The notes below the pieces were generated by a model. The model had not been told where the DNA came from and ran no database searches. It saw nothing but the letters and a program-made list of their open reading frames with translations. The translations under genes and the position numbers were made by a program. From positions 3,341,897 through 3,405,896 of the forward strand of contig NC_014387.1 of NCBI RefSeq assembly GCF_000145035.1: a stretch of DNA of 64,000 nucleotides, read 5' to 3'. Every line of letters begins with the position of its first letter. Positions within the stretch are counted from its first letter, which is position 1. Positions 4,132 through 47,916 of the stretch are shown in pieces. This DNA comes from Butyrivibrio proteoclasticus B316. GTDB lineage: Bacteria; Bacillota; Clostridia; Lachnospirales; Lachnospiraceae.

Positions 4132-5454
4132 TCACCCATGAAAATAAACTACTTTTCCCCTGCATATCGTGTTATAAATTTTTCCCGGCAACCTCTGGCC
4201 CAAAAATGGTGTATTGGAGGACTTGGAAACGCTCTGTACAAAGCTCCACTCCTCTCCGGAGTTAAAGATCACAAGGTCAGCATATCCTCCCTCTGTGATT
4301 CTTCCTGCATCAAGCCCATATACTCTGGCAGGGCCTGCGCTCATCCTGTCTATAAGATCTCCCATTGTGAGAAATCCTGTATTAACCAGCTCTCTGATCC
4401 CAAGAGAAAGAGATGTCTCAAGCCCTGTAATTCCGCTAGGTGCCTGTGTCAGCTCTTTTTGTTTCTCCTCTCTTGAATGAGGAGCGTGGTCTGTTGCTAT
4501 CATTTCTATTGTGCCATCCTGAAGTCCTGCAATGATTGCCTGTCTGTCGCTCTCAAGTCTGAGCGGCGGATTCATCTTGGCAAGTGAGCCGTACTTGAGA
4601 ACTGCATCCTGCGTAAGAGTGAAATGATGAGGCGTTGCTTCCGCATGAACCTTAACTCCGCGCGCTCTTGCCTCTCTTATCAGGTCAACTGCCTCACTGG
4701 TACTGATGTGCTGAACAACAATCTCAGCTCCTGTCTTCTCAGCTATCTCTATATCTCTTTTCACCATTGAGATTTCCGCTTCTCTTGGCGAACCTGTAAT
4801 TCCCAGTTTCTCTGAGACTTCTCCAGCATTGATTCCATTATTAGTAATAAGCTCAGGATTCTCCTCATGAAGACTGATTATCATGTTTCTTTTGGCTGCC
4901 TCTATACAGGCTTTCTCCATAATTTCGGAATCTGTAACAGGCTTACCGTCATCAGTAAAAAGAACTGCCCCGGCCTCCATAAGAGCATCCATATCAACAA
5001 GTTCTTTTCCGTCCATGCCCTTTGTGACATTTCCGCAGGTCAGAACTCTGATCCCGGTCTTACTGCCTCTTTCAAGAACATCTTTGATCGTCGCCACATT
5101 GTCCATATGTGGTTCTGTATTTCCCATCATGACAACAGTGGTAAAACCACCCTTGGCCGCCGCCCTTGCTCCTGTCTCAATATCCTCTTTATATGTAAAT
5201 CCCGGATCTCTGAAATGAACATGACAATCCACAAGTCCCGGAGCAACTATACATCCTGATGCATCAATTTCTGACAGTTCTTCACCCGCAGCAGGATTCT
5301 CCATAAGTTTCATTGAAACGCATTCAGCCGCCATATCATCAAGGCTTCCGCACGCACCAATCCTCGCAATCCTGTCTTCATCTATCAGAATGTCATACAT
5401 TCCGCTTCTGTTACTTGCAGGATCAAGTAATGTTCCGTTCTTGATAATTATCAT
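4132..5454 (-). CDS. pyrC: Dihydroorotase (PyrC)
   Basis: Zinc amidohydrolase that cyclises carbamoyl-aspartate to dihydroorotate. It shows the metal motif GLVDCHVHFRDPGFTYKEDIETG with HxH near residue 60, two later histidines in the sheet region (VQHIS; AEATPHH), and the ATDHAPHS motif carrying the catalytic Asp. The ATG at 5454 is preceded by AAGGAGG with 5 bases spacing, so I prefer it to an in-frame start 12 codons upstream. About 440 residues, normal for the long bacterial type. First gene of the pyr cluster; I saw no PyrR-type attenuator ahead of it. Confidence 0.95.
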   Translation of the reverse strand: MIIIKNGTLLDPASNRSGMYDILIDEDRIARIGACGSLDDMAAECVSMKLMENPAAGEELSEIDASGCIVAPGLVDCHVHFRDPGFTYKEDIETGARAAAKGGFTTVVMMGNTEPHMDNVATIKDVLERGSKTGIRVLTCGNVTKGMDGKELVDMDALMEAGAVLFTDDGKPVTDSEIMEKACIEAAKRNMIISLHEENPELITNNGINAGEVSEKLGITGSPREAEISMVKRDIEIAEKTGAEIVVQHISTSEAVDLIREARARGVKVHAEATPHHFTLTQDAVLKYGSLAKMNPPLRLESDRQAIIAGLQDGTIEMIATDHAPHSREEKQKELTQAPSGITGLETSLSLGIRELVNTGFLTMGDLIDRMSAGPARVYGLDAGRITEGGYADLVIFNSGEEWSFVQSVSKSSNTPFLGQRLPGKIYNTICRGKVVYFHG

Positions 5455-16950: not shown

Positions 16951-17124
16951 GGCTCTGTAAAGGGTGTATGTAGCAGTCCTTTTGTGTAGGTTCGGGTCTT
17001 ATGCAATGGAAATCTGCGAACCGTGTCAGGTCGGGAACGAAGCAGCACTAAGTGGAACCTTCCATGTGTTGTAAGGTTGCCTGTCTCTACCGGAAGTCAA
17101 CGTACATGCATCCTTTACAGAGCC
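16951..17124 (+). ncRNA. ffs: Signal recognition particle RNA
   Basis: The universally conserved SRP helix-8 core is at 17023-17048 (GTGTCAGGTC..., then GGAA tetraloop region, then GAAGCAGCAC), followed by TAAG and the closing GGAACCTTCCAT arm that pairs with ATGGAA at 17007-17012. The ends pair perfectly over 13 bp: GGCTCTGTAAAGG (16951-16963) with CCTTTACAGAGCC (17112-17124), extended by a G-U-rich helix, making a helix-5-like rod. About 174 nt is between the small (about 100 nt) and Bacillus-type (about 270 nt) bacterial forms. Exact ends are inferred from the pairing. Confidence 0.9.
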
Positions 17125-23474: not shown

Positions 23475-23527
23475 TTGGAAGTTCCTCCCCATAATTTAGT
23501 TTATAAGTAAACCTATATATATAATAA

Positions 23528-23658
23528 CATGGATTTCTCCGCTACGCTTTCGAAATCCATGCACACATTCGGAATCCGCACTATCGTGCTACTTCCTCAT
23601 GCGTGTATATGTCTCAAGGTCCAAGAATCTCTCATGCAAGCATGAGATTCTTGGACTT
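23528..23658. repeat. Structured intergenic element of three tandem hairpins
   Basis: Between metG and the hydrolase. Hairpin 1: CATGGATTTC (23528-23537) with GAAATCCATG (23552-23561). Hairpin 2 is imperfect, about 23562-23608, built on GCAC-TATC-GTGC with outer arms ACACATTCGGAA and TTCCTCATGCGTGT. Hairpin 3: GTCCAAGAATCTC with GAGATTCTTGGAC at about 23619-23657. None is followed by a T-run, so these are not ordinary terminators. The compact series looks like a mobile intergenic repeat or a structured RNA end for metG. Confidence 0.65.
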
Positions 23659-23672
23659 TGATCCATTTATTA

Positions 23673-25712
23673 TCAACAGATTTCTGCACCTGAGGGCATA
23701 GGCTTCTCAGGAGTCATGAGCGCAAGGTTACCCTCAGCATCTTCTGCACAAAGAAGCATTCCTTCTGACAAAACTCCGGCAAGCTTAGCAGGCTTTAAGT
23801 TTACAAGAACCATTACTTTCTTGCCGACCATCTCTTCAGGAGTGTAATACTTTCTGATACCGGATACGATCTGCTTGACCTGACTTCCAATCTTGACCTG
23901 TGAGCACAGAAGTTTCTTGGATTTCTCAACTGCCTCGCAGGCAATGATCTCACCAACCTGGAACTGCATAGCTCCGAACTGGTCATATTCGATTTCTTCC
24001 TTGGCAGGAATGTCGATAGGAGCCTGCTCAGACTCTGCTGTTTCTGCCTTAGGTGCTGGTGCAGGAGCAAGTCCGGCCTTGGCAAGGTTCTCTGCTGCCT
24101 TTCTCTGAGATTCTTCAAAATCAGCCTTCTGCTTCTTGGTTATTTCAGCAGCCTTCTCGAGCACATCCTTGAGATCCTTACGAGCAAAGAGCATCTCAGG
24201 AGCCTCAACAACCTTAGTGCCTGAAGCAAGCACGCCGAACTGGCCAAGTGAGTCGAATTCTCTTTCAGGAGCATTGAGCTGTTCTCTGATCTTCTGAGCT
24301 GTTTCAGGCATAAATGGATCAAGAAGAGCAGCGCCGATTGAAATAGACTCTACAAGGTTGTACAGAACTGTAGAAAGTCTGTCCTTCTTGCTCTCATCCT
24401 TACCAAGTACCCATGGCTCAGTTTCGTCGATATATTTGTTGCATCTCTTAAAGAGAGTAAAGATTTCAGTAAGCGCATCAGCAACTCTGAGCTCATCCAT
24501 CTTCTTCTCAACCTTGTCATAGCATGATGTAACTACAGCCTTAAGGTCTGCGTCAACATCCTCTGTAACACCCTTATCAGCTACAACGCCACCAAGATAT
24601 TTGTTACTCATGGCAATTGTTCTGTTAACAAGGTTTCCAAGTGTATTAGCAAGGTCTGAGTTGAAACGCTCAACCAAAAGTTCCCATGTAATAACACCGT
24701 CGTTCTCAAAAGGCATCTCGTGAAGTACGAAATATCTTACAGGATCAACACCAAAGAGACTTACAAGGTCATCAGCATAGATAACGTTACCCTTTGATTT
24801 ACTCATCTTCTCGCCGCCCTGAAGGAGCCATGGATGACCAAATATCTGCTTAGGAAGCGGCTCTCCGAGTGCCATCAGGAAAATAGGCCAGTAAATTGTA
24901 TGGAATCGAATAATATCTTTACCAATAAGATGAAGATCAGCGGGCCACCACTTCTTGTATTCTTCGCTGCTATGGCCTTCTGCATCGTAACCAATACCTG
25001 TGATATAGTTTGAAAGTGCATCAAGCCATACATATACAACATGCTTGTCATCAAAGTCTACAGGAATTCCCCACTTAAATGACGTTCTGGAAACGCACAG
25101 ATCCTGAAGTCCCGGAAGAAGGAAGTTGTTCATCATCTCATTCTTTCTGGATACAGGCTGAATAAACTCAGGATGTGTATTGATATAATCAATAAGCTTG
25201 TCAGCATATTTGCTCATTTTAAAGAAATATGCCTCTTCCTCTGCGGGATGAACAGGACCGCCGCATTCAGGGCACTTGCCATCCTTGAGCTGAGACTCTG
25301 TATAGAACGCCTCACACTCTGTACAATACATTCCCTTGTATGATCCCTTGTAAATATCACCCTGATCATAAAATCTCTTGAATATCTTCTGAACCTGCTT
25401 GACATGATCATCATCTGTAGTACGGATGAATCTGTCATAAGATGTATCCATGAGGTTCCAAAGTCCCTTAATAGTATCTGAAACCTGATCAACAAACTCT
25501 TTAGGAGAAGCACAGCCTGCTTCAATTGCTCTTGTCTCAATCTTCTGCCCATGTTCATCTGAACCGGTCTGGAAGTGAACATCAAATCCATCTCTTCTCT
25601 TATATCTTGCGATTGCATCTGCAAGCACGATCTCATAGCTGTTACCGATATGTGGCTTACCTGATGTATAAGCAATCGCAGTAGTAATGTAGTATTTACC
25701 CTTATTCTGCAT
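23673..25712 (-). CDS. metG: Methionyl-tRNA synthetase
   Basis: About 679 residues. Class I signature AYTSGKPHIGNSYE near the N-terminus (HIGH equivalent), a zinc knuckle CTECEAFYTESQLKDG...CPECGG, KMSKSKGNVIY (KMSKS loop), the alpha-helical anticodon-binding region, an Ala/Lys/Glu-rich linker (about 545-580) and a C-terminal OB-fold tRNA-binding domain (FGAMQFQVGEI onward) that promotes dimer formation. The ATG at 25712 follows AAAGGATATATAGAA; a TTG six codons before it is less likely. The preceding gene on this strand is map, 37 bases away. Confidence 0.96.
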   Translation of the reverse strand: MQNKGKYYITTAIAYTSGKPHIGNSYEIVLADAIARYKRRDGFDVHFQTGSDEHGQKIETRAIEAGCASPKEFVDQVSDTIKGLWNLMDTSYDRFIRTTDDDHVKQVQKIFKRFYDQGDIYKGSYKGMYCTECEAFYTESQLKDGKCPECGGPVHPAEEEAYFFKMSKYADKLIDYINTHPEFIQPVSRKNEMMNNFLLPGLQDLCVSRTSFKWGIPVDFDDKHVVYVWLDALSNYITGIGYDAEGHSSEEYKKWWPADLHLIGKDIIRFHTIYWPIFLMALGEPLPKQIFGHPWLLQGGEKMSKSKGNVIYADDLVSLFGVDPVRYFVLHEMPFENDGVITWELLVERFNSDLANTLGNLVNRTIAMSNKYLGGVVADKGVTEDVDADLKAVVTSCYDKVEKKMDELRVADALTEIFTLFKRCNKYIDETEPWVLGKDESKKDRLSTVLYNLVESISIGAALLDPFMPETAQKIREQLNAPEREFDSLGQFGVLASGTKVVEAPEMLFARKDLKDVLEKAAEITKKQKADFEESQRKAAENLAKAGLAPAPAPKAETAESEQAPIDIPAKEEIEYDQFGAMQFQVGEIIACEAVEKSKKLLCSQVKIGSQVKQIVSGIRKYYTPEEMVGKKVMVLVNLKPAKLAGVLSEGMLLCAEDAEGNLALMTPEKPMPSGAEIC

Positions 25713-42976: not shown

Positions 42977-43018
42977 AAAATTACAAGAACAGATTAAAAA
43001 CGTTGGAGGTATGATGTA

Positions 43019-43555
43019 ATGAATGAATCTATAATATTGTTATTATTCTATGCTTTGATAGTAATTGTGCTTGCTTTTTTGATCAAGCGCAGACACAAGA
43101 CCGAACACTATGATGAACTGCAGCTGAAAAACAGAGCAGAAGCTTACAAGAGAGCATTCTTTACCATAATCGTTCTTCTTTGTGGAATTATTATATATGA
43201 TACCTGTTCAGGCAATACTCTTCCGCCATTTGTTCTTAGCGGACTGCTCATAATCGTTGTCATGACTGGCTTTCTTGTTTTTGCAGTTTATTCTATATGG
43301 CACGATGCCTTCTTCTACCTTGGGCAGAGTTGGAAAGCCTACTTTGGTGTATGCATCGGCGTAGGGCTTGCTCAGTTAATCGAACTTATTAGCGTCATTT
43401 CACGCATATTAAAAGGCGGCGAGCACGAAGAGAACTTTTGGAACCTGGTACTTTCCAAGGTATCCGCAAGTGCAATGATGACTATTACATTTATTACATT
43501 GGCTGTTGTTATTGGAATTAAGCAGTATAGAGAAAACAAGATATGCGAGGATTAA
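43019..43555 (+). CDS. Membrane protein of unknown function, paired with XRE regulator
   Basis: A 178-residue protein with an N-terminal helix (about 4-22), a short basic segment (KRRHKTEHYDELQLKNRAEAYKR), and four further helices (about 47-65, 72-97, 108-132, 148-170). It resembles small membrane proteins that precede YgzD-type regulators in Firmicutes; the function is unknown. GGAGG is 9 bases from the ATG. The XRE gene starts three bases after its stop. Confidence 0.85.
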   Translation: MNESIILLLFYALIVIVLAFLIKRRHKTEHYDELQLKNRAEAYKRAFFTIIVLLCGIIIYDTCSGNTLPPFVLSGLLIIVVMTGFLVFAVYSIWHDAFFYLGQSWKAYFGVCIGVGLAQLIELISVISRILKGGEHEENFWNLVLSKVSASAMMTITFITLAVVIGIKQYRENKICED

Positions 43556-43558
43556 GCC

Positions 43559-43750
43559 ATGAAAAATTTGAAATTAAAATCTGCCAGAGCTGCCAAGGAC
43601 TTGTCTCAGGAAGATTTGGCCAAACTCTGCGACGTATCAAGACAAACTATCAGTGCTATTGAAAAGGGGGACTATAACCCGACAATAAATCTTTGTATTG
43701 CTATCTGCAAAGCTTTGGATAAGACTCTAGACGAACTGTTTTGGAATTAA
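43559..43750 (+). CDS. Small XRE-family transcriptional regulator
   Basis: A 63-residue helix-turn-helix protein with the motif LSQEDLAKLCDVSRQTISAIEKGDYNPTIN, like YgzD/YozG-type regulators. It contains only the DNA-binding domain. It is coupled to the upstream membrane-protein gene (3-base gap, GAGG ribosome site) and probably represses the operon through the repeats at 42902-42946. Confidence 0.92.
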   Translation: MKNLKLKSARAAKDLSQEDLAKLCDVSRQTISAIEKGDYNPTINLCIAICKALDKTLDELFWN

Positions 43751-43756
43751 GGCTCA

Positions 43757-43789
43757 AAAAAGCGGCAAGTTTTATACTTACCGCTTTTT
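43757..43789. terminator. Bidirectional rho-independent terminator
   Basis: AAAAAGCGGCAAGT (43757-43770) and ACTTACCGCTTTTT (43776-43789) with one mismatch, between the XRE gene and the convergent methyltransferase. Confidence 0.85.
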
Positions 43790-43794
43790 CATTA

Positions 43795-44568
43795 TTAGCC
43801 TTTTTTCTTTGCCACTATAAGGTATCTGTGAATAGTACCTTCTACATAACCATTCTTGTCAATTACTTCCTGTATTTTGAGAAGTCTGTCAAAACACTTA
43901 TCTACAGAGAATCCCGGGAACTCCCACTCAATGATATGAGCAAACCATACAAATGCACCAACATCATAAAAGCGAATAGGTCTAAAGGCCTCCTCTGCTC
44001 TGATAATCTTTAATCCTGCATCCTCAAACTTTTTCTTCTGAATAGAAAGCTCAAGCTCTGGAAATGGCTTTGGCACATCAGGCAGAACCATCTCTACAAG
44101 ATCTCTGTCATTCTCCCCGCCAACCTGCTCAGTAATGAACAGTCCATCAGGTCGAAGAAGCCTTGCAGTTTCCTCAGGATCAAAGTCACCATGTCTATTA
44201 ATAATCATATCAAAAGAGCCATCTGCAAAAGGAACGTTTGACGCATCATCACAAGCCTTGAAGTCTATTCCAAGTGGCAACAGTTCTTTCATGCACAACT
44301 CAACATTTGGTGCATAACCTTCTGTAGCTGCAGTTTTGCCATAAGGATGTCCAAGAGATCTCAGGAATTCTCCACCGCCTGTATCAAAGTCCAATAACTC
44401 CATACTATCCACGCGGTTCTCATCAATTATCTGCTTGTAATTCCAAGGAAGATCTTCCTCCTCTTCGTACCTGTCATGGATATGAGAAAAATCCCAGCCG
44501 TGAATATGAGCTATCTTCTCCTCTGCTTCCCACTCTATTCTTAATTCACTTATTCTATCTGTATTCAT
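43795..44568 (-). CDS. Class I SAM-dependent methyltransferase with attenuator-like leader
   Basis: A 257-residue Rossmann methyltransferase. Motif I is LLDFDTGGGEFLRSLG (about 68-83), a usual acidic residue follows in ATEGYAPNVELC, and motif IV is DMIINRHGDF. The first 60 residues are acidic and Trp-rich (GWDFSHIHDRYEEEEDLPWNY), a pattern I associate with a Firmicutes subfamily of unproven substrate; there is no zinc finger, so it is not a typical RlmA. AAAGGAG 6 bases before the ATG. The 5' region has a leader peptide and alternative hairpins, and a MerR-TipAS gene is upstream, so antibiotic or ribosome-stress induction is plausible. Confidence 0.8.
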   Translation of the reverse strand: MNTDRISELRIEWEAEEKIAHIHGWDFSHIHDRYEEEEDLPWNYKQIIDENRVDSMELLDFDTGGGEFLRSLGHPYGKTAATEGYAPNVELCMKELLPLGIDFKACDDASNVPFADGSFDMIINRHGDFDPEETARLLRPDGLFITEQVGGENDRDLVEMVLPDVPKPFPELELSIQKKKFEDAGLKIIRAEEAFRPIRFYDVGAFVWFAHIIEWEFPGFSVDKCFDRLLKIQEVIDKNGYVEGTIHRYLIVAKKKG

Positions 44569-44611
44569 ATCTGCTCCTTTTCAAATAAAAAACTGTTCTT
44601 CATTATTTGTT

Positions 44612-44706
44612 CGGTGCAGTATGTGACAGCAAATAACTCTTATTAATCTCGGTACAACCTGCTGTCAGCATTAAAACTGCACCGAGTAGTTATCTCGCAT
44701 TCTCAT
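44612..44706 (-). promoter_or_regulatory. Candidate attenuator: leader ORF with mutually exclusive stems
   Basis: Read on the minus strand, the leader codons can pair in several ways: CGGTGCAGT (complement of 44676-44684) with 44612-44620; CTCGGT-type 44681-44686 with 44648-44653; AGTTAT-type 44688-44693 with 44633-44638. A separate stem joins 44661-44667 with 44624-44630. The first two cannot form together, and both are changed if a ribosome stalls on the leader. No clear T-run terminator follows, so translational control of the methyltransferase is as likely as transcriptional. Confidence 0.6.
44671..44706 (-). CDS. Leader peptide MRMRDNYSVQF
   Basis: An 11-codon ORF with AGGAGG five bases before its ATG, one of the best ribosome sites in the window. 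It ends TAA 102 bases before the methyltransferase start. Codons 5-11 form arms of the alternative stems described for this region. A peptide this short with such a site is best explained as a regulatory leader. The Arg-Met-Arg start and the Tyr-Ser-Val-Gln-Phe end could favour drug-dependent stalling, which is an inference. Confidence 0.65.
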   Translation of the reverse strand: MRMRDNYSVQF

Positions 44707-44755
44707 GATTACCTCCTATGCGACATCTGTTTATCCAGATTGACACAACAAAGAT

Positions 44756-44785
44756 ATTATATACAATGCTATAAGCACGCGTAAA
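44756..44785 (-). promoter_or_regulatory. Promoter for leader peptide and methyltransferase
   Basis: On the minus strand TTTACG (44785-44780), an 18-base spacer and a perfect TATAAT (44761-44756). Transcription would start near 44749, about 43 bases before the leader ATG. Confidence 0.65.
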
Positions 44786-44849
44786 TACTGATTTAATTAT
44801 TCTGACAGTTTAATTCGCCAGATGACTTCAAAATCGTATATTGTTGTGA

Positions 44850-45578
44850 TCATCTTCCGCAATGAATCTTAATAGCCTGAAAGATAAACTCTGCAGTTCC
44901 TTTACCGCCCATCTTTTCAATGTTCTGGGTCAGCTCTCCGCCGCCTACATAGCCTGTTCCAAGGCCATAAAGAATATCATCAGTGCATGTGTACATATGC
45001 TCTGTAATGAAATCCTGTACTTTCTTTACCTGAGCCTGGACCTCTTCGGATGCCGGATCCATTCCCTTCATAGTTCCCAACTCTTCAAAAAGCTTAGTAA
45101 AGTCAGCCATCAGGCCGCTCTCATATTCCTTTGTCCAGTTCTTGCTCTTCTCGGCATATTCTTTATAAGCAGGAGTATCTCCCCACTGTTCTTTAGCCTT
45201 TTTAGCGTATTCATCAAGCTTACTTGTATCAAATGCTGAAAAATTCAATTTTCTCACTCCTCTCACTTTAAGGTATTTGCACATGTTCAGCAGATTCTCA
45301 ATGTGCTCCTTCTTAAGTTCCAGAAGTTCTATCTGCTGTTCCAGTGCTTTTGTCTTATCAAAGTCAGATCTGTTAACTATTTCCTTTATGTCTTTTAGCG
45401 GAAATTCCAGCTCCCTGAACAGTAAAATCTGCTGCAACTTTTCCAGAGCTGCATCGTCATACAGCCTGTAGTCAGAATCGGTGTACTTCGCCGGCTTTAA
45501 GAGTCCGATCTCATCGTAATAATGCAGTGTGCGTATACTCACTCCCGTCATTTTACTTACTTCATTTACTGTCATCAT
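44850..45578 (-). CDS. MerR-family regulator with TipAS drug-binding domain
   Basis: About 242 residues. The N-terminal MerR helix-turn-helix MTVNEVSKMTGVSIRTLHYY is followed by DEIGLLKPAKYTDSDYRLYDDAALEKLQQI, then a dimer coiled coil (FDKTKALEQQIELLELKKEHIENLL). The C-terminal TipAS region (about 125-242) has YAKKAKEQWGDTPAYKEY and YTCTDDILYGLGTGYVGGGELTQNIEKMGG. TipAL/Mta relatives sense thiopeptides or other hydrophobic drugs and activate resistance genes. The ATG at 45578 follows AAGGAG by 9 bases; an upstream GTG overlaps that site. It has its own MerR-type promoter. Confidence 0.9.
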   Translation of the reverse strand: MMTVNEVSKMTGVSIRTLHYYDEIGLLKPAKYTDSDYRLYDDAALEKLQQILLFRELEFPLKDIKEIVNRSDFDKTKALEQQIELLELKKEHIENLLNMCKYLKVRGVRKLNFSAFDTSKLDEYAKKAKEQWGDTPAYKEYAEKSKNWTKEYESGLMADFTKLFEELGTMKGMDPASEEVQAQVKKVQDFITEHMYTCTDDILYGLGTGYVGGGELTQNIEKMGGKGTAEFIFQAIKIHCGR

Positions 45579-45606
45579 GGCTTTCATCTCCTTCACGTGT
45601 AACTAT

Positions 45607-45637
45607 ACCTTAAACCATAACGTAACGTGAGGGTCAA
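45607..45637 (-). promoter_or_regulatory. MerR-type promoter with 19-bp spacer
   Basis: On the minus strand TTGACC (45637-45632), a 19-base spacer CTCACGTTACGTTATGGTT and TAAGGT (45612-45607). The over-long spacer and dyad CCTCACGTTACG/TTAAGG-like symmetry are the hallmark of promoters that MerR activators untwist; it sits just before the MerR-TipAS gene, so positive autoregulation is expected. Confidence 0.75.
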
Positions 45638-45673
45638 TACTTTTTGTAAAAAATACCTCACATCATAGAATAA

Positions 45674-45703
45674 TCAGCAAGGTTTCTGTAATTTGACGCT
45701 CAT
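45674..45703 (-). CDS. Possible 9-residue ORF (MSVKLQKPC)
   Basis: GGAGG lies 6 bases before the ATG, and the frame ends TGA after nine codons. It follows the methyltransferase stop and precedes the MerR promoter. ACATCAT around its ATG can pair with ATGATGT at 45666-45660 (minus strand), so it may be a structured leader or a chance ORF. Confidence 0.3.
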   Translation of the reverse strand: MSVKLQKPC

Positions 45704-45721
45704 GATGTTCCTCCAACATTA

Positions 45722-46540
45722 TCAATTCTTTATGAATATCTGAACAACATGATTTGAATAGCCCATAAGATCAGGTCTTTCAGCTGTTGCTTTCAAATAC
45801 TGAATCCATTCATTATATGAGGCTTCAGACATTTTGTTTACAGACTCTCTTATAACCTGTGAAAGTCCATCCTGTGCAAATCTTGGTCCCTTTGATACAG
45901 GCAAAGTCTCTAGTACTTTATCAGTAAGTTCATCAATTGCAGATATGGTATGCAGCTGTATAGATGAGCCTGTATTATCAGTAACCAGCGCTGTATCTCT
46001 CTCATATCCTATTTCATTTATTTCTTCCGCAGGGTTTTCACTCTGAAAAATATATTCTATAAGCGGAGCATCCTGAAGAACAAAAGAGACAAATATCGGA
46101 GCACCTTTCTTTGCCACACGCACAGCTTCTTTTATCGCAACAACTCTCTCATGAACATTTTTAAGATGGTAAATTGGCCCAAGCTCCAAAACAAGATCAT
46201 AAGTACCATCTGAAGAATCTCGCAAATCCAATGCATTGCCCTGACAAATATTTACATTTTTTCTATCCTGGAATAAATCTTTCATTCTTGAAACATTGTC
46301 GGGATGCAGGTCTATAGCATCAACATGGAATCCTTCATCTGCCAAAGCCTTAGTATATACGCCACATCCAGCACCTACGTCTATGACCTTTGCTCTAGGC
46401 TTTAGATATTTGTGAATATAATGCTTCGTTATTATGAATTCCGTTTCATTTGCTTTTGTGTAAAACAGTCGTTTCTCTTCAACAGCCCCTGCATACTGTC
46501 TCTGATAAAGCTCATATAATTCTGTTCCACTAAGTCCCAT
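45722..46540 (-). CDS. Class I SAM-dependent methyltransferase
   Basis: About 272 residues with motif I VIDVGAGCGVYTKALADEG, the acidic tip in VDAIDLHPDN, and motif IV DLVLELGPIYHL followed by HERVVAIKEAVRVAKKGAPIFVSFV. The ATG at 46540 follows AGGAGG by 7 bases. It is clearly a different family from the methyltransferase at 43795-44568. The small-molecule or RNA substrate is unknown. It is upstream of MerR-TipAS and 11 bases after the ORF6N gene. Confidence 0.83.
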   Translation of the reverse strand: MGLSGTELYELYQRQYAGAVEEKRLFYTKANETEFIITKHYIHKYLKPRAKVIDVGAGCGVYTKALADEGFHVDAIDLHPDNVSRMKDLFQDRKNVNICQGNALDLRDSSDGTYDLVLELGPIYHLKNVHERVVAIKEAVRVAKKGAPIFVSFVLQDAPLIEYIFQSENPAEEINEIGYERDTALVTDNTGSSIQLHTISAIDELTDKVLETLPVSKGPRFAQDGLSQVIRESVNKMSEASYNEWIQYLKATAERPDLMGYSNHVVQIFIKN

Positions 46541-46551
46541 CCTCAATCCTC

Positions 46552-47514
46552 CTACACCTGTTTTCCGGTACTTTGAGCTTTTTGTATAATGGAATTGATT
46601 AGCCCAACATCAGCCAGTCTATTGATTCCAAAGCACTTCTTACCAGCATCCTTGATAGATGCTCCAATATGATAACCTTTATTACCATCAATAATCATAA
46701 AGCGATCGTGAAATGCCGTTGTTTTAAACGCATTAAGAGCCGGATACTGTGCATTAAAATTTGTAATATCCTGCTTAGTCAGTTTAGTTCCTGGCAATGT
46801 GTAAATAGCAACATCTACGCCAGACTTCTTTTTAGCCAGTATATTCAATGTTTGTAAATCCACATATCCATCAATAAGGGTAATGCTGCTTTGAGCTTCT
46901 TCTACAATATCCGCCAAAAGCAAAAATGCATCGAATATCTGACCGTCAAAGAAAACTTTCTGCATATCTTCCTTATCCGACTCAATATAATCAAAAACCT
47001 TATCAAATTTTTTCTCTGTTTCCAGTCTGAATTGCTCGTTTTGGATTTGTGATTCTATCTGCCTATGTTCGATGGTATTAACTTTATCCATCAGTAACGC
47101 ATTTCTAGCAAGGTACTTTCTCATGACTACAAATGTCTTCATGATACGTATACTAACTGTAACCGCAGTTTCTCCTCTAAGCACAGATGATAACATAGCA
47201 ATGCCTTGCTCTGTATACACAAAAGGAAGTGTACGTCTACCACCATGTTCATACTCACTTGAAATGCCAAATTGGCATTTCAAGTGATCATATTCCTGTT
47301 TGGTTATTTGAAAACAGAACTCTTCTGGAAATCTTTTCTTATTTCTTTTCATAGCTCTGTTCAGGCTTCCAGTCTCGACTCCATATAACCTCGCAAGGTC
47401 AGAATCAAGCACTATCTGAGCGCCCCTCAATAAATGAATAACATCCTTGATATCTTCATAATCATCATTATCTATTTCAGTAGAAAACTCCACCAACTCA
47501 TTTTTTTCTTCCAT
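46552..47514 (-). CDS. ORF6N-domain DNA-binding protein with C-terminal PLD-like half
   Basis: The N-terminal ORF6N domain (about 18-110) shows VIHLLRGAQIVLDSDLARLYGVETGSLNRAMKRNKKRFPEEF and GGRRTLPFVYTEQGIAMLSSVLRG, typical of phage and mobile-element regulators. A coiled coil (about 130-180) leads to a C-terminal phospholipase-D-like half with FHDRFMIIDGNKGYHIGASIKDAGKKCFGI, where H-D-R...H-I-G-A-S replaces a full HKD. A nuclease or ligand-binding role is possible. Preceded by an XRE gene, with the palindrome 47525-47559 in the 42-bp gap. GGGAGG ribosome site. Confidence 0.85.
   Translation of the reverse strand: MEEKNELVEFSTEIDNDDYEDIKDVIHLLRGAQIVLDSDLARLYGVETGSLNRAMKRNKKRFPEEFCFQITKQEYDHLKCQFGISSEYEHGGRRTLPFVYTEQGIAMLSSVLRGETAVTVSIRIMKTFVVMRKYLARNALLMDKVNTIEHRQIESQIQNEQFRLETEKKFDKVFDYIESDKEDMQKVFFDGQIFDAFLLLADIVEEAQSSITLIDGYVDLQTLNILAKKKSGVDVAIYTLPGTKLTKQDITNFNAQYPALNAFKTTAFHDRFMIIDGNKGYHIGASIKDAGKKCFGINRLADVGLINSIIQKAQSTGKQV
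47254..47286. repeat. Palindrome copy 1, inside the ORF6N gene
   Basis: ACTTGAAATGCCAA and TTGGCATTTCAAGT flank one central A at 47256-47284, extended to 33 bp here. It encodes HLKCQFGISSE in the ORF6N domain. An identical 29-bp unit lies at 47528-47556. Confidence 0.9.
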
Positions 47515-47524
47515 TTTTCCTCCC

Positions 47525-47559
47525 TAAACTTGAAATGCCAAATTGGCATTTCAAGTTTA
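47525..47559. repeat. Palindrome copy 2, between XRE and ORF6N genes
   Basis: The same 29-bp unit (47528-47556), extended to 35 bp by flanking AAA/TTT pairs; it overlaps the XRE stop codon and ends about 10 bases before the ORF6N ribosome site. It is a likely operator or RNA hairpin; no T-run follows, so a terminator is less likely. Confidence 0.85.
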
Positions 47560-47916
47560 CATTTTTTCCAAATCATCAAGCTTTTTTAATGTCTTAAGAT
47601 ACCTCTCAAATCTCTTCTGCTGATCAATAGACAACTTATGATATTCCAGAATGATTTCCTTATCATGGAAACTAAAGTCTAATTCCCTACTAGAATACTC
47701 ATCAAAATCACCATCAATCCCTTTGCCTGTAAGAAGCTGCTCCGGTGTTATATCAAGTGCATCGCATATAGTCATTATTTTATCTGCTGAAGGATTGGTC
47801 TTCTTGGTCTTCCAATCGCTGATAGTACTACCTGAAAGCCCCACCATCTTTCCAAAAGCACTCTGCGATATTCCTCTTTGCTCAAGTATCTTAAATATTC
47901 TTTCACTAATAATCAT
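47557..47916 (-). CDS. XRE-family phage-repressor-like regulator
   Basis: A 119-residue protein. The helix-turn-helix (about 5-60) has GISQSAFGKMVGLSGSTISDWKTKKTNPSADKIMTICDALDITPEQLL. The C-terminal part is acidic and helical (YHKLSIDQQKRFERYLKTLKKLDD), probably for dimer formation; there is no peptidase domain. GGAGATAAG before the ATG. It is translated just before the ORF6N gene and is a candidate to bind the palindrome. Confidence 0.9.
   Translation of the reverse strand: MIISERIFKILEQRGISQSAFGKMVGLSGSTISDWKTKKTNPSADKIMTICDALDITPEQLLTGKGIDGDFDEYSSRELDFSFHDKEIILEYHKLSIDQQKRFERYLKTLKKLDDLEKM

Follow-up and report, generated by a model that had tools for sequence, protein, structure and literature searches.

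A conserved leader element with a near-invariant CGA codon and competing RNA pairings, a probable translational attenuator, precedes a Butyrivibrio methyltransferase gene and unrelated genes in Lachnospiraceae and beyond

The locus

Within the window, the whole 64,000-nucleotide stretch of Butyrivibrio proteoclasticus B316 analyzed here, a gene for a class I SAM methyltransferase is preceded by a very short leader ORF with its own Shine-Dalgarno (SD) sequence and by a series of segments that can pair in alternative ways. Every part of the element and its regulated gene lies on the minus strand (Table 1). An earlier note, made from the sequence alone, had read this arrangement as a drug-responsive attenuator, and the promoter-like site, leader ORF, SD sequence, and SAM methyltransferase that it described are all present. 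By itself the promoter-like site is weak evidence, since such sites are common in the window (13 found versus 10.1 ± 3.3 expected). At three related loci (L003, L004, and L005) the promoter region before the element is near-identical to that of the window.

The leader RNA of the window folds at −53.7 kcal/mol versus −37.9 ± 3.9 kcal/mol for dinucleotide shuffles (z = −4.0), beating 200 of 200. A search for the three-segment pattern gave one occurrence in the window and none in 100 shuffles. A search for terminator-like sites between window positions 43000 and 46500 returned none. Against Rfam 15, the window leader RNA has no match, the other strand gives one below-threshold snoRNA match (E value of 1.1), and 12 related loci give no match at E values up to 1.

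Among the Pfam and NCBIfam matches listed for the methyltransferase, only Pfam Methyltransf_11 passes its curated cutoff. Fold searches with its AlphaFold2 model (pLDDT of 89.5) returned many similar class I methyltransferases, with small-molecule enzymes and RlmA(I) included among the matches listed, and a PDB sequence search gave no significant match. On its predicted structure the enzyme appears to be a generic class I methyltransferase, for which the fold searches name no substrate.

The methyltransferase had also been linked to a neighboring TipAS-type drug sensor, a link that did not hold up. A tblastn search of the related loci, most of which carry about 1.5 kb on each side, found near-full-length matches to the regulator at the window's own locus (L001 and L026) and in L128, where the match is full-length but distant (32% identity); three further loci (L093, L121, and L065) match its N-terminal part. 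On this search we rejected TipAS as a regular partner of the element. The regulator's own promoter (window 45584-45660) contains CTCACGTTACGT, which we take to be a MerR-like motif and which suggests that the TipAS-type gene is self-regulated; inspection by eye found nothing similar before the methyltransferase.

Several other features of the window deserve mention in their own right. Convergent with the methyltransferase is a plus-strand gene pair (43019-43750) for a membrane-type protein without a Pfam match and then a 63-aa XRE-type regulator, both labels being read off the sequence. A gene that we take to be ORF6N/KilA-N-like and a small, presumably Cro/CI-like regulator lie near the methyltransferase cassette both in the window (46552-47916) and in L005, on opposite sides of the cassette in the two. 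The window also holds a Clostridiales-1 RNA (23522-23675, minus strand) and a small SRP RNA (16990-17089, plus strand).

Table 1. Parts of the element and its regulated gene, in window coordinates
Feature	Position	Strand	Remarks
Promoter-like site, TTTACG-18-TATAAT	44756..44785	-	Consensus match only, 10/12 positions
Leader Shine-Dalgarno, AGGAGG	44712..44717	-	Upstream of the leader ORF
Leader ORF, MRMRDNYSVQF*, 11 codons	44671..44706	-	ATG AGA ATG CGA GAT AAC TAC TCG GTG CAG TTT TAA
CGA (Arg) codon	44695..44697	-	4 codons 5' of the segment 1 TCG; near-invariant; proposed A-site codon of the stalled ribosome
Segment 1, CTCGGTGCAG	44677..44686	-	Within the leader ORF; its CTC is used chiefly in 1:2
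Segment 2', TGACAGCA	44660..44667	-	Pairs with 3'; 7/8 helix pairs with changes on both sides
Segment 2, TTGTACCGAG	44648..44657	-	Pairs with segment 1; 3/10 pairs with changes on both sides
Segment 3', TGCTGTCA	44624..44631	-	Pairs with 2'; same alignment as 1:3
Segment 3, ACTGCACCG	44612..44620	-	Pairs with segment 1 or segment 4
Segment 4, GGAGCAGATATG	44566..44577	-	Methyltransferase Shine-Dalgarno, spacer, and gene start
Regulated gene, class I SAM methyltransferase, 257 aa	43795..44568	-	Pfam Methyltransf_11 match

Distribution of the element and the genes behind it

The element is conserved in Lachnospiraceae and beyond, an observation wider than the window alone could show. The earlier proposal had been made to depend on conservation of the leader and stems in relatives with the same methyltransferase, and both were indeed found upstream of the gene in 8 of the 15 genomes (among 61 searched) that carry a full-length homologue, while being absent in 7 of the 15; the proposal thus survives the sequence part of its own refutation test. 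The one of the 8 that lies outside the genus, L015, encodes an enzyme 47% identical to that of the window, and the segments of its element are changed and still match one another.

A covariance model (R1), built from six elements, gave hits in 16 of the 61 genus genomes and 24 of the 299 family genomes searched. With a wider model (R2) the numbers were 18 of 295 for the order, 8 of 391 for the class, and 5 of 398 for the phylum; some genomes recur between these searches, and searches of more than 40 genomes ran under stricter filters, in which weak matches are lost. The window's genome has one copy at R1 thresholds. Because all six R1 seed elements have the CGA codon, model-found members lean toward it, which is not so for the set found by pattern. 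That pattern scan, over a collection of 84,980 species, returned at least 120 stretches where a rough estimate of chance expectation is about two, and 80 of these loci, 78 of them distinct, make up the pattern-found set. The titles of 41 of the 80 listed loci name Lachnospiraceae and others name Butyrivibrio, Roseburia, and relatives, or Clostridium, Maledivibacter, Desulfosporosinus, Enterococcus, Longibaculum, and Paenibacillaceae.

Some individual loci may bear on how the element moves and persists. One IMG/VR contig (L204, 6140-6217) has the element with a methyltransferase in two reading frames and also encodes phage-like proteins such as a terminase (labeled from reading the proteins), from which the cassette may travel with phages or prophages. 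In L121 (about 4469-4562, the same locus as L031) leader and stems are intact before a methyltransferase without its N-terminal part, and in L033 no methyltransferase frame of at least 70 aa follows the element in the available DNA; to judge from these two sequences, the element can outlast its gene. On plasmids, methyltransferase relatives occur in 59 of 72,556 records, all below 60% identity, and ABC relatives occur in 4 records (Melissococcus) at about 41%, under a strict E value.

For the count of downstream families, 10 of 102 elements had no assignable start or SD sequence and were dropped. Behind the remaining 92 lie 47 methyltransferases, 33 ABC exporters, 9 radical-SAM enzymes, 2 MFS transporters, and 1 truncated methyltransferase. 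Short motifs served to assign these families, and a few representatives were compared with Pfam or NCBIfam. Since four unrelated families stand downstream, the element is a module used by unrelated genes. Most of these genes would suit drug modification or export. The gene neighborhoods that we examined around leader-bearing methyltransferases differ from one another.

Alternative pairings and matched base changes

The earlier note had drawn two stems that share leader codons, 44686-44676 with 44620-44612 and with 44653-44648, and both exist; the second extends to 10 pairs (44686-44677 with 44657-44648). A third stem that it proposed, 44693-44688 with 44638-44633, is present in the window, but matching complementarity occurs in only 2 of 83 related elements, and we rejected it as a part of the conserved element. 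Three further features had escaped the note: a 2':3' helix, a pairing of segment 3 with segment 4, and the near-invariance of CGA.

Segments 1 and 2 form standard pairs in 820 of 820 alignment cells, and 50 cells are changed on both sides versus 14 ± 8 after shuffling (0 of 500 shuffles). For 1:3 and 2':3' together, in an alignment that was fitted to this structure and not to 1:2, 94.9% of cells are paired and 11 of 17 pairs are changed on both sides, in 148 cells versus 47 ± 11 after shuffling (again 0 of 500).

The two variable positions of segment 1 make the point most directly in the 78 distinct pattern-found loci, for which the search pattern left the base combinations at these positions free. 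Positions 4 and 7 are both A in 38 loci and both G in 40. Where position 4 is A, segment 2 has T in 38 of 38 and segment 3 has T in 35 of 38; where it is G, segment 2 has C in 39 of 40 and segment 3 has C or T in 40 of 40. An A at position 7 is met by T in both segments (38/38), and a G by C in segment 3 (40/40). Position 4 and segment 2 thus form A-T or G-C in 77 of 78 loci and G-T in the other one, position 7 matches segment 3 in 78 of 78, and position 4 matches segment 3 in 75 of 78, counting G-T. Segment 1 must match two strands, so any change in it had to be followed in both. On sequence comparison, then, three pairings (1:2, 1:3, and 2':3') are supported by matched base changes. They are conserved, and 1:2 and 1:3 are mutually exclusive, as expected of a translational attenuator; the proposal of a leader-controlled attenuator with exclusive stems gains support from them.

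That one pairing can occlude the SD sequence, the other expectation of such an attenuator, is seen at the level of complementarity and folding. The 3:4 duplex of the window has an energy of −10.7 kcal/mol, and in 35 of 38 methyltransferase elements the element's own 3:4 duplex falls within the best 5% of those formed by shuffled versions of segment 3. Mean energies are −12.0 for methyltransferase elements (n = 38) and −13.4 for ABC elements (n = 30), versus −5.5 and −6.4 with segment 3 shuffled; when segment 3 is set against the start site of the other family the duplexes are weaker (−8.6 and −7.3). A U-rich stretch comes after segment 3 in L015 and L125, where a terminator role is possible; the stretch is able to pair with the SD sequence, so it need not be a terminator.

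The leader ORF and the CGA codon

An SD-led, in-frame start that stays open through segment 1 is found in 64 of 78 distinct elements, compared with 1 of 78 in each of the other two frames; 14 of 78 fail this strict test. The codon at −4 from the segment 1 serine (TCG or TCA) is CGA in 79 of 83 aligned elements, in 75 of the 78 distinct pattern-found elements, whose search pattern was blind to CGA, in 13 of 14 clusters at 65% identity, and in 18 of 22 loci of a further set, three of which repeat earlier loci. The codon is missing there from 4 of the 83 and 4 of the 22. By comparison, CGA makes up 3.4% of Arg codons in long ORFs of the window (22/654) and 9.7% in the regulated genes (129/1335). 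Outside the paired part no other codon is near-invariant, and those around CGA vary. The start codon precedes it by 2 to 7 codons in the 64 elements whose start is SD-led, and the leader stop follows the segment 1 serine after 3 to 16 codons; only the distance from CGA to segment 1 is fixed.

CGA is the codon read by an inosine tRNA-Arg. All 79 arginines at this position in the 83 aligned elements are encoded by CGA, which points to decoding speed. A ribosome might be waiting for supply, with no ribosome-binding drug involved, because the tRNA-Arg for CGA is scarce, uncharged, unmodified, or damaged. The keeping of a specific codon and not merely of arginine accords with such a sensor, as does the slower decoding of CGA than of CGU and CGC in a his-leader assay (in the available part of PMC4046918). 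A run of codons for one amino acid, the feature of supply attenuators, is not found in these leaders, in which a single CGA stands and would be unusual for that purpose, and the controlled exporters, methyltransferases, and radical-SAM enzymes are not arginine genes. We regard a pure supply sensor as quite improbable.

Six elements (L083, L075, L199, L200, L202, and L094) have a Leu, Phe, Ser, or His codon at −4 instead of CGA, and in most of these G/S-K/N-Y/C comes next. Such elements may answer a different signal. The assigned start of L202 is probably too far downstream.

The +X+ motif of macrolide-responsive leaders such as those of yxjB and ermD, R/K-X-R/K with its final residue in the A site, occurs in 24 of 83 leaders, among them that of the window, whose MRMR fits R-X-R. 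At that frequency it is not a family rule and cannot be the general signal. Over segment 1 the peptide has SVQ in 82 of 83 aligned members and SMQ in the remaining one. Variants that change this peptide are matched in the RNA in five loci (SMQF in L044, SVRF in L193, SVRL in L194, LVQS in L196, and SIQF in L203) and unmatched in segments 2 and 3 in two (SEQL in L190 and SGQL in L201). Most of the conservation of SVQ is therefore accounted for by RNA pairing. The SMQ, SVR, LVQ, and SIQ variants, with their matched RNA changes, disfavor SVQ as an arrest peptide.

Folding with a moving ribosome

We folded each element with a block standing for the ribosome and moved its leading edge along the leader; tables of this edge scan cover 74 of the 92 elements (38 methyltransferase, 30 ABC, and 6 radical-SAM), and what follows on ribosome position is a prediction of this model. 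As long as the edge has not reached segment 1, 1:2 and 1:3 coexist in the predicted ensemble. Once it lies on CTC, at −1 to +1 relative to the T of TCG, the probability of 1:2 drops to 0.02 to 0.12 in the 38 methyltransferase elements, and 1:3 stands at 0.85 to 0.95 in these, 0.82 to 0.90 in the ABC elements, and 0.82 to 0.96 in the radical-SAM elements. From edge +3 onward 1:3 declines and 3:4 rises, to about 0.63 in methyltransferase, 0.74 in ABC, and 0.50 in radical-SAM elements; at +6 and beyond 1:3 is at most 0.01 in the 38 methyltransferase elements, and the ABC and radical-SAM elements are on the same course. When an AUG occupies the P site, toeprints appear 15 to 16 nt 3' of its A, according to the accessible text of PMC6851288, and by this distance an edge at −1 to +1 corresponds to a ribosome with CGA in its A site.

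A scan by codon gives the same position for the two main families. In 47 methyltransferase elements SD exposure peaks with CGA in the A site (0.68 versus 0.30 to 0.54 elsewhere), and in 33 ABC elements it is 0.60 at CGA versus 0.21 to 0.55 elsewhere; exposure does not clearly peak at CGA in the 9 radical-SAM elements and has no maximum there in the 2 MFS elements. Conservation, which is observed, and the model, which is a prediction, were obtained separately and converge on CGA.

The reading of the earlier note follows the classical erm logic, in which a drug would stall the ribosome over segment 1, on the conserved YSVQ, and so open the gene. The near-constancy of SVQ described above is what speaks for that logic. 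In the folding model, however, segment 1 and the SD region compete for segment 3, so coverage of segment 1 by a ribosome shuts the start site, and the predicted open state belongs to a ribosome that has halted a step before, with CGA as its A-site codon; this and the RNA-matched SVQ variants make the erm-like reading very improbable in our judgment.

The modeled contrast is clearest against ribosomes further along the leader. The start site is more open, by more than 0.05, with CGA in the A site than with the ribosome further on in 34 of 38 methyltransferase, 28 of 30 ABC, and 5 of 6 radical-SAM elements. Compared with the prestall state, the stalled state gains more than 0.05 in just 24 of 38, 22 of 30, and 3 of 6, respectively. 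Relative to the translated state, 2 methyltransferase elements and 1 ABC element move in the wrong direction, and the mean change in SD exposure is modest (0.61 versus 0.39 for methyltransferases). In the window, the nascent RNA is predicted to pass from 1:2 (0.97) to 1:3 (above 0.99) once segment 3 appears, and the SD sequence is unpaired at 0.91 in the free RNA, 0.85 with the ribosome stalled, and 0.50 with the ribosome past CGA (0.79, 0.83, and 0.50 under slightly different limits). Because the ribosome-free RNA of the window is already predicted to be open, the modeled contrast there holds only against ribosomes further along, and the simplest rule that the model yields for this copy is that a leader translated through means closed and anything otherwise means open.

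That rule is the same as a general sensor of translation failure, in which CGA causes no special stall and any block to leader translation before segment 1 would allow 1:3 to form and turn the gene ON. Triggers would be initiation inhibitors, a shortage of ribosomes, or drugs that arrest them at the start codon (pleuromutilins, lincosamides, or tetracyclines). The predicted openness of the ribosome-free window fold agrees with this alternative, as does the general preference for 1:3 once segment 3 has been made (mean of 0.90 in 38 methyltransferase, 0.94 in 30 ABC, and 0.82 in 6 radical-SAM elements), and the portions of PMC12121999 and PMC10201436 available to us describe toiL, cplR, and vmlR as responsive to drugs that presumably arrest the ribosome on the start codon. 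It leaves unexplained, however, why CGA is near-invariant at a fixed distance from segment 1 while the distance to the start varies from 2 to 7 codons, and why 1:2 is conserved. We consider it unlikely.

Proposed mechanism

We think it probable that the element is a leader-peptide-controlled translational attenuator, a three-way RNA switch that a ribosome stall at CGA turns ON. Segment 1, which lies within the leader ORF, would pair either with segment 2 or with segment 3, the latter pairing being extended by 2':3', and segment 3 would have the SD region of the next gene as its alternative partner. During free translation of the leader, ribosomes would cover segment 1, 3:4 would form, and the gene would be OFF. 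A ribosome with CGA in the A site would cover with its leading edge only CTC, three bases used chiefly by 1:2, and segment 1 would then pair with segment 3 and free segment 4, turning the gene ON; one codon past CGA, 1:3 would be lost and 3:4 would close the start site. The stall signal would probably be a ribosome-targeting drug, as suggested by controlled genes that look like resistance genes and by R-X-R in some leaders, and the version we prefer has such a drug acting together with the slow CGA codon.

As a possibility that we advance tentatively and with some doubt, the CGA-paused ribosome may act as a ruler, its leading edge unzipping the three base pairs that chiefly distinguish the two hairpins. 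The result would be a switch about one codon wide that reports the decoding of CGA, a new regulatory class adopted by unrelated resistance-type genes across the Firmicutes.

Relation to known attenuators

In ermC, ermD, and cat, a leader peptide is combined with alternative hairpins and start-site occlusion, and a ribosome on the leader frees the start site. The element resembles these systems in all three components. It differs in that the model predicts closure of the start site when a ribosome occupies segment 1. Contrary to the earlier note, the layout is not exactly that of these systems, since segment 1 and the SD region compete for segment 3.

A close parallel is Bacillus subtilis yxjB (tlrB), the gene for the 23S rRNA methyltransferase RlmA(II). 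As the available text of PMC6851288 has it, tylosin holds the ribosome at an RYR sequence of the leader while the second Arg occupies the A site, and the start site becomes free. Both have a very short leader ORF, an SD-sequestering RNA, and a methyltransferase downstream, and both have Arg in the A site at the stall (here as proposed), with the window's MRMR fitting R-X-R. As described in the same portion of that paper, yxjB uses an intrinsic terminator and one SD-sequestering hairpin, whereas here a leader segment competes with the SD sequence for a third strand; here, too, CGA is fixed and R-X-R is not (24/83), and four gene families are served.

The Escherichia coli toiL-topAI uORF is alike in that stalled uORF ribosomes change the folding at the start site of the next gene, an effect that is modeled in our case (PMC12121999, available part). 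That account proposes that the start site is unmasked by a stall at any point of the uORF, whereas our model gives a window about one codon wide; sequence, host, and genes are all different. The Clostridioides difficile cplR uORF (MRI), as far as the accessible sections of PMC10201436 go, is likewise a short clostridial uORF with anti-SD pairing, and its attenuator is induced by lincomycin and retapamulin. It has a three-codon uORF and an intrinsic terminator, whereas no terminator-like site was found within window positions 43000 to 46500. The Thioalkalivibrio "smtA motif," as presented in the part of PMC11109978 available, was considered and rejected as unrelated to the element. Other uORF candidates are named in the available parts of PMC8632094 and PMC6429828.

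Our literature searches, which included leader peptide strings and took in a minority of the subscription papers, returned no description of the element. Leader-peptide attenuation is already known. What is new is a three-way competition that involves the start site, a fixed CGA, and the variety of genes served.

Implications

If the ruler with its one-codon resolution is real, it would explain the retention of one slow codon at a constant spacing from an RNA switch. If the proposed attenuator is correct, methyltransferases, ABC and MFS transporters, and radical-SAM enzymes have in common a class of riboregulator that is absent from Rfam 15 and from the papers searched. A shared sensor suggests that the genes under its control may answer the same or related compounds, and it would help to track down new resistance functions in bacteria of the gut and rumen.
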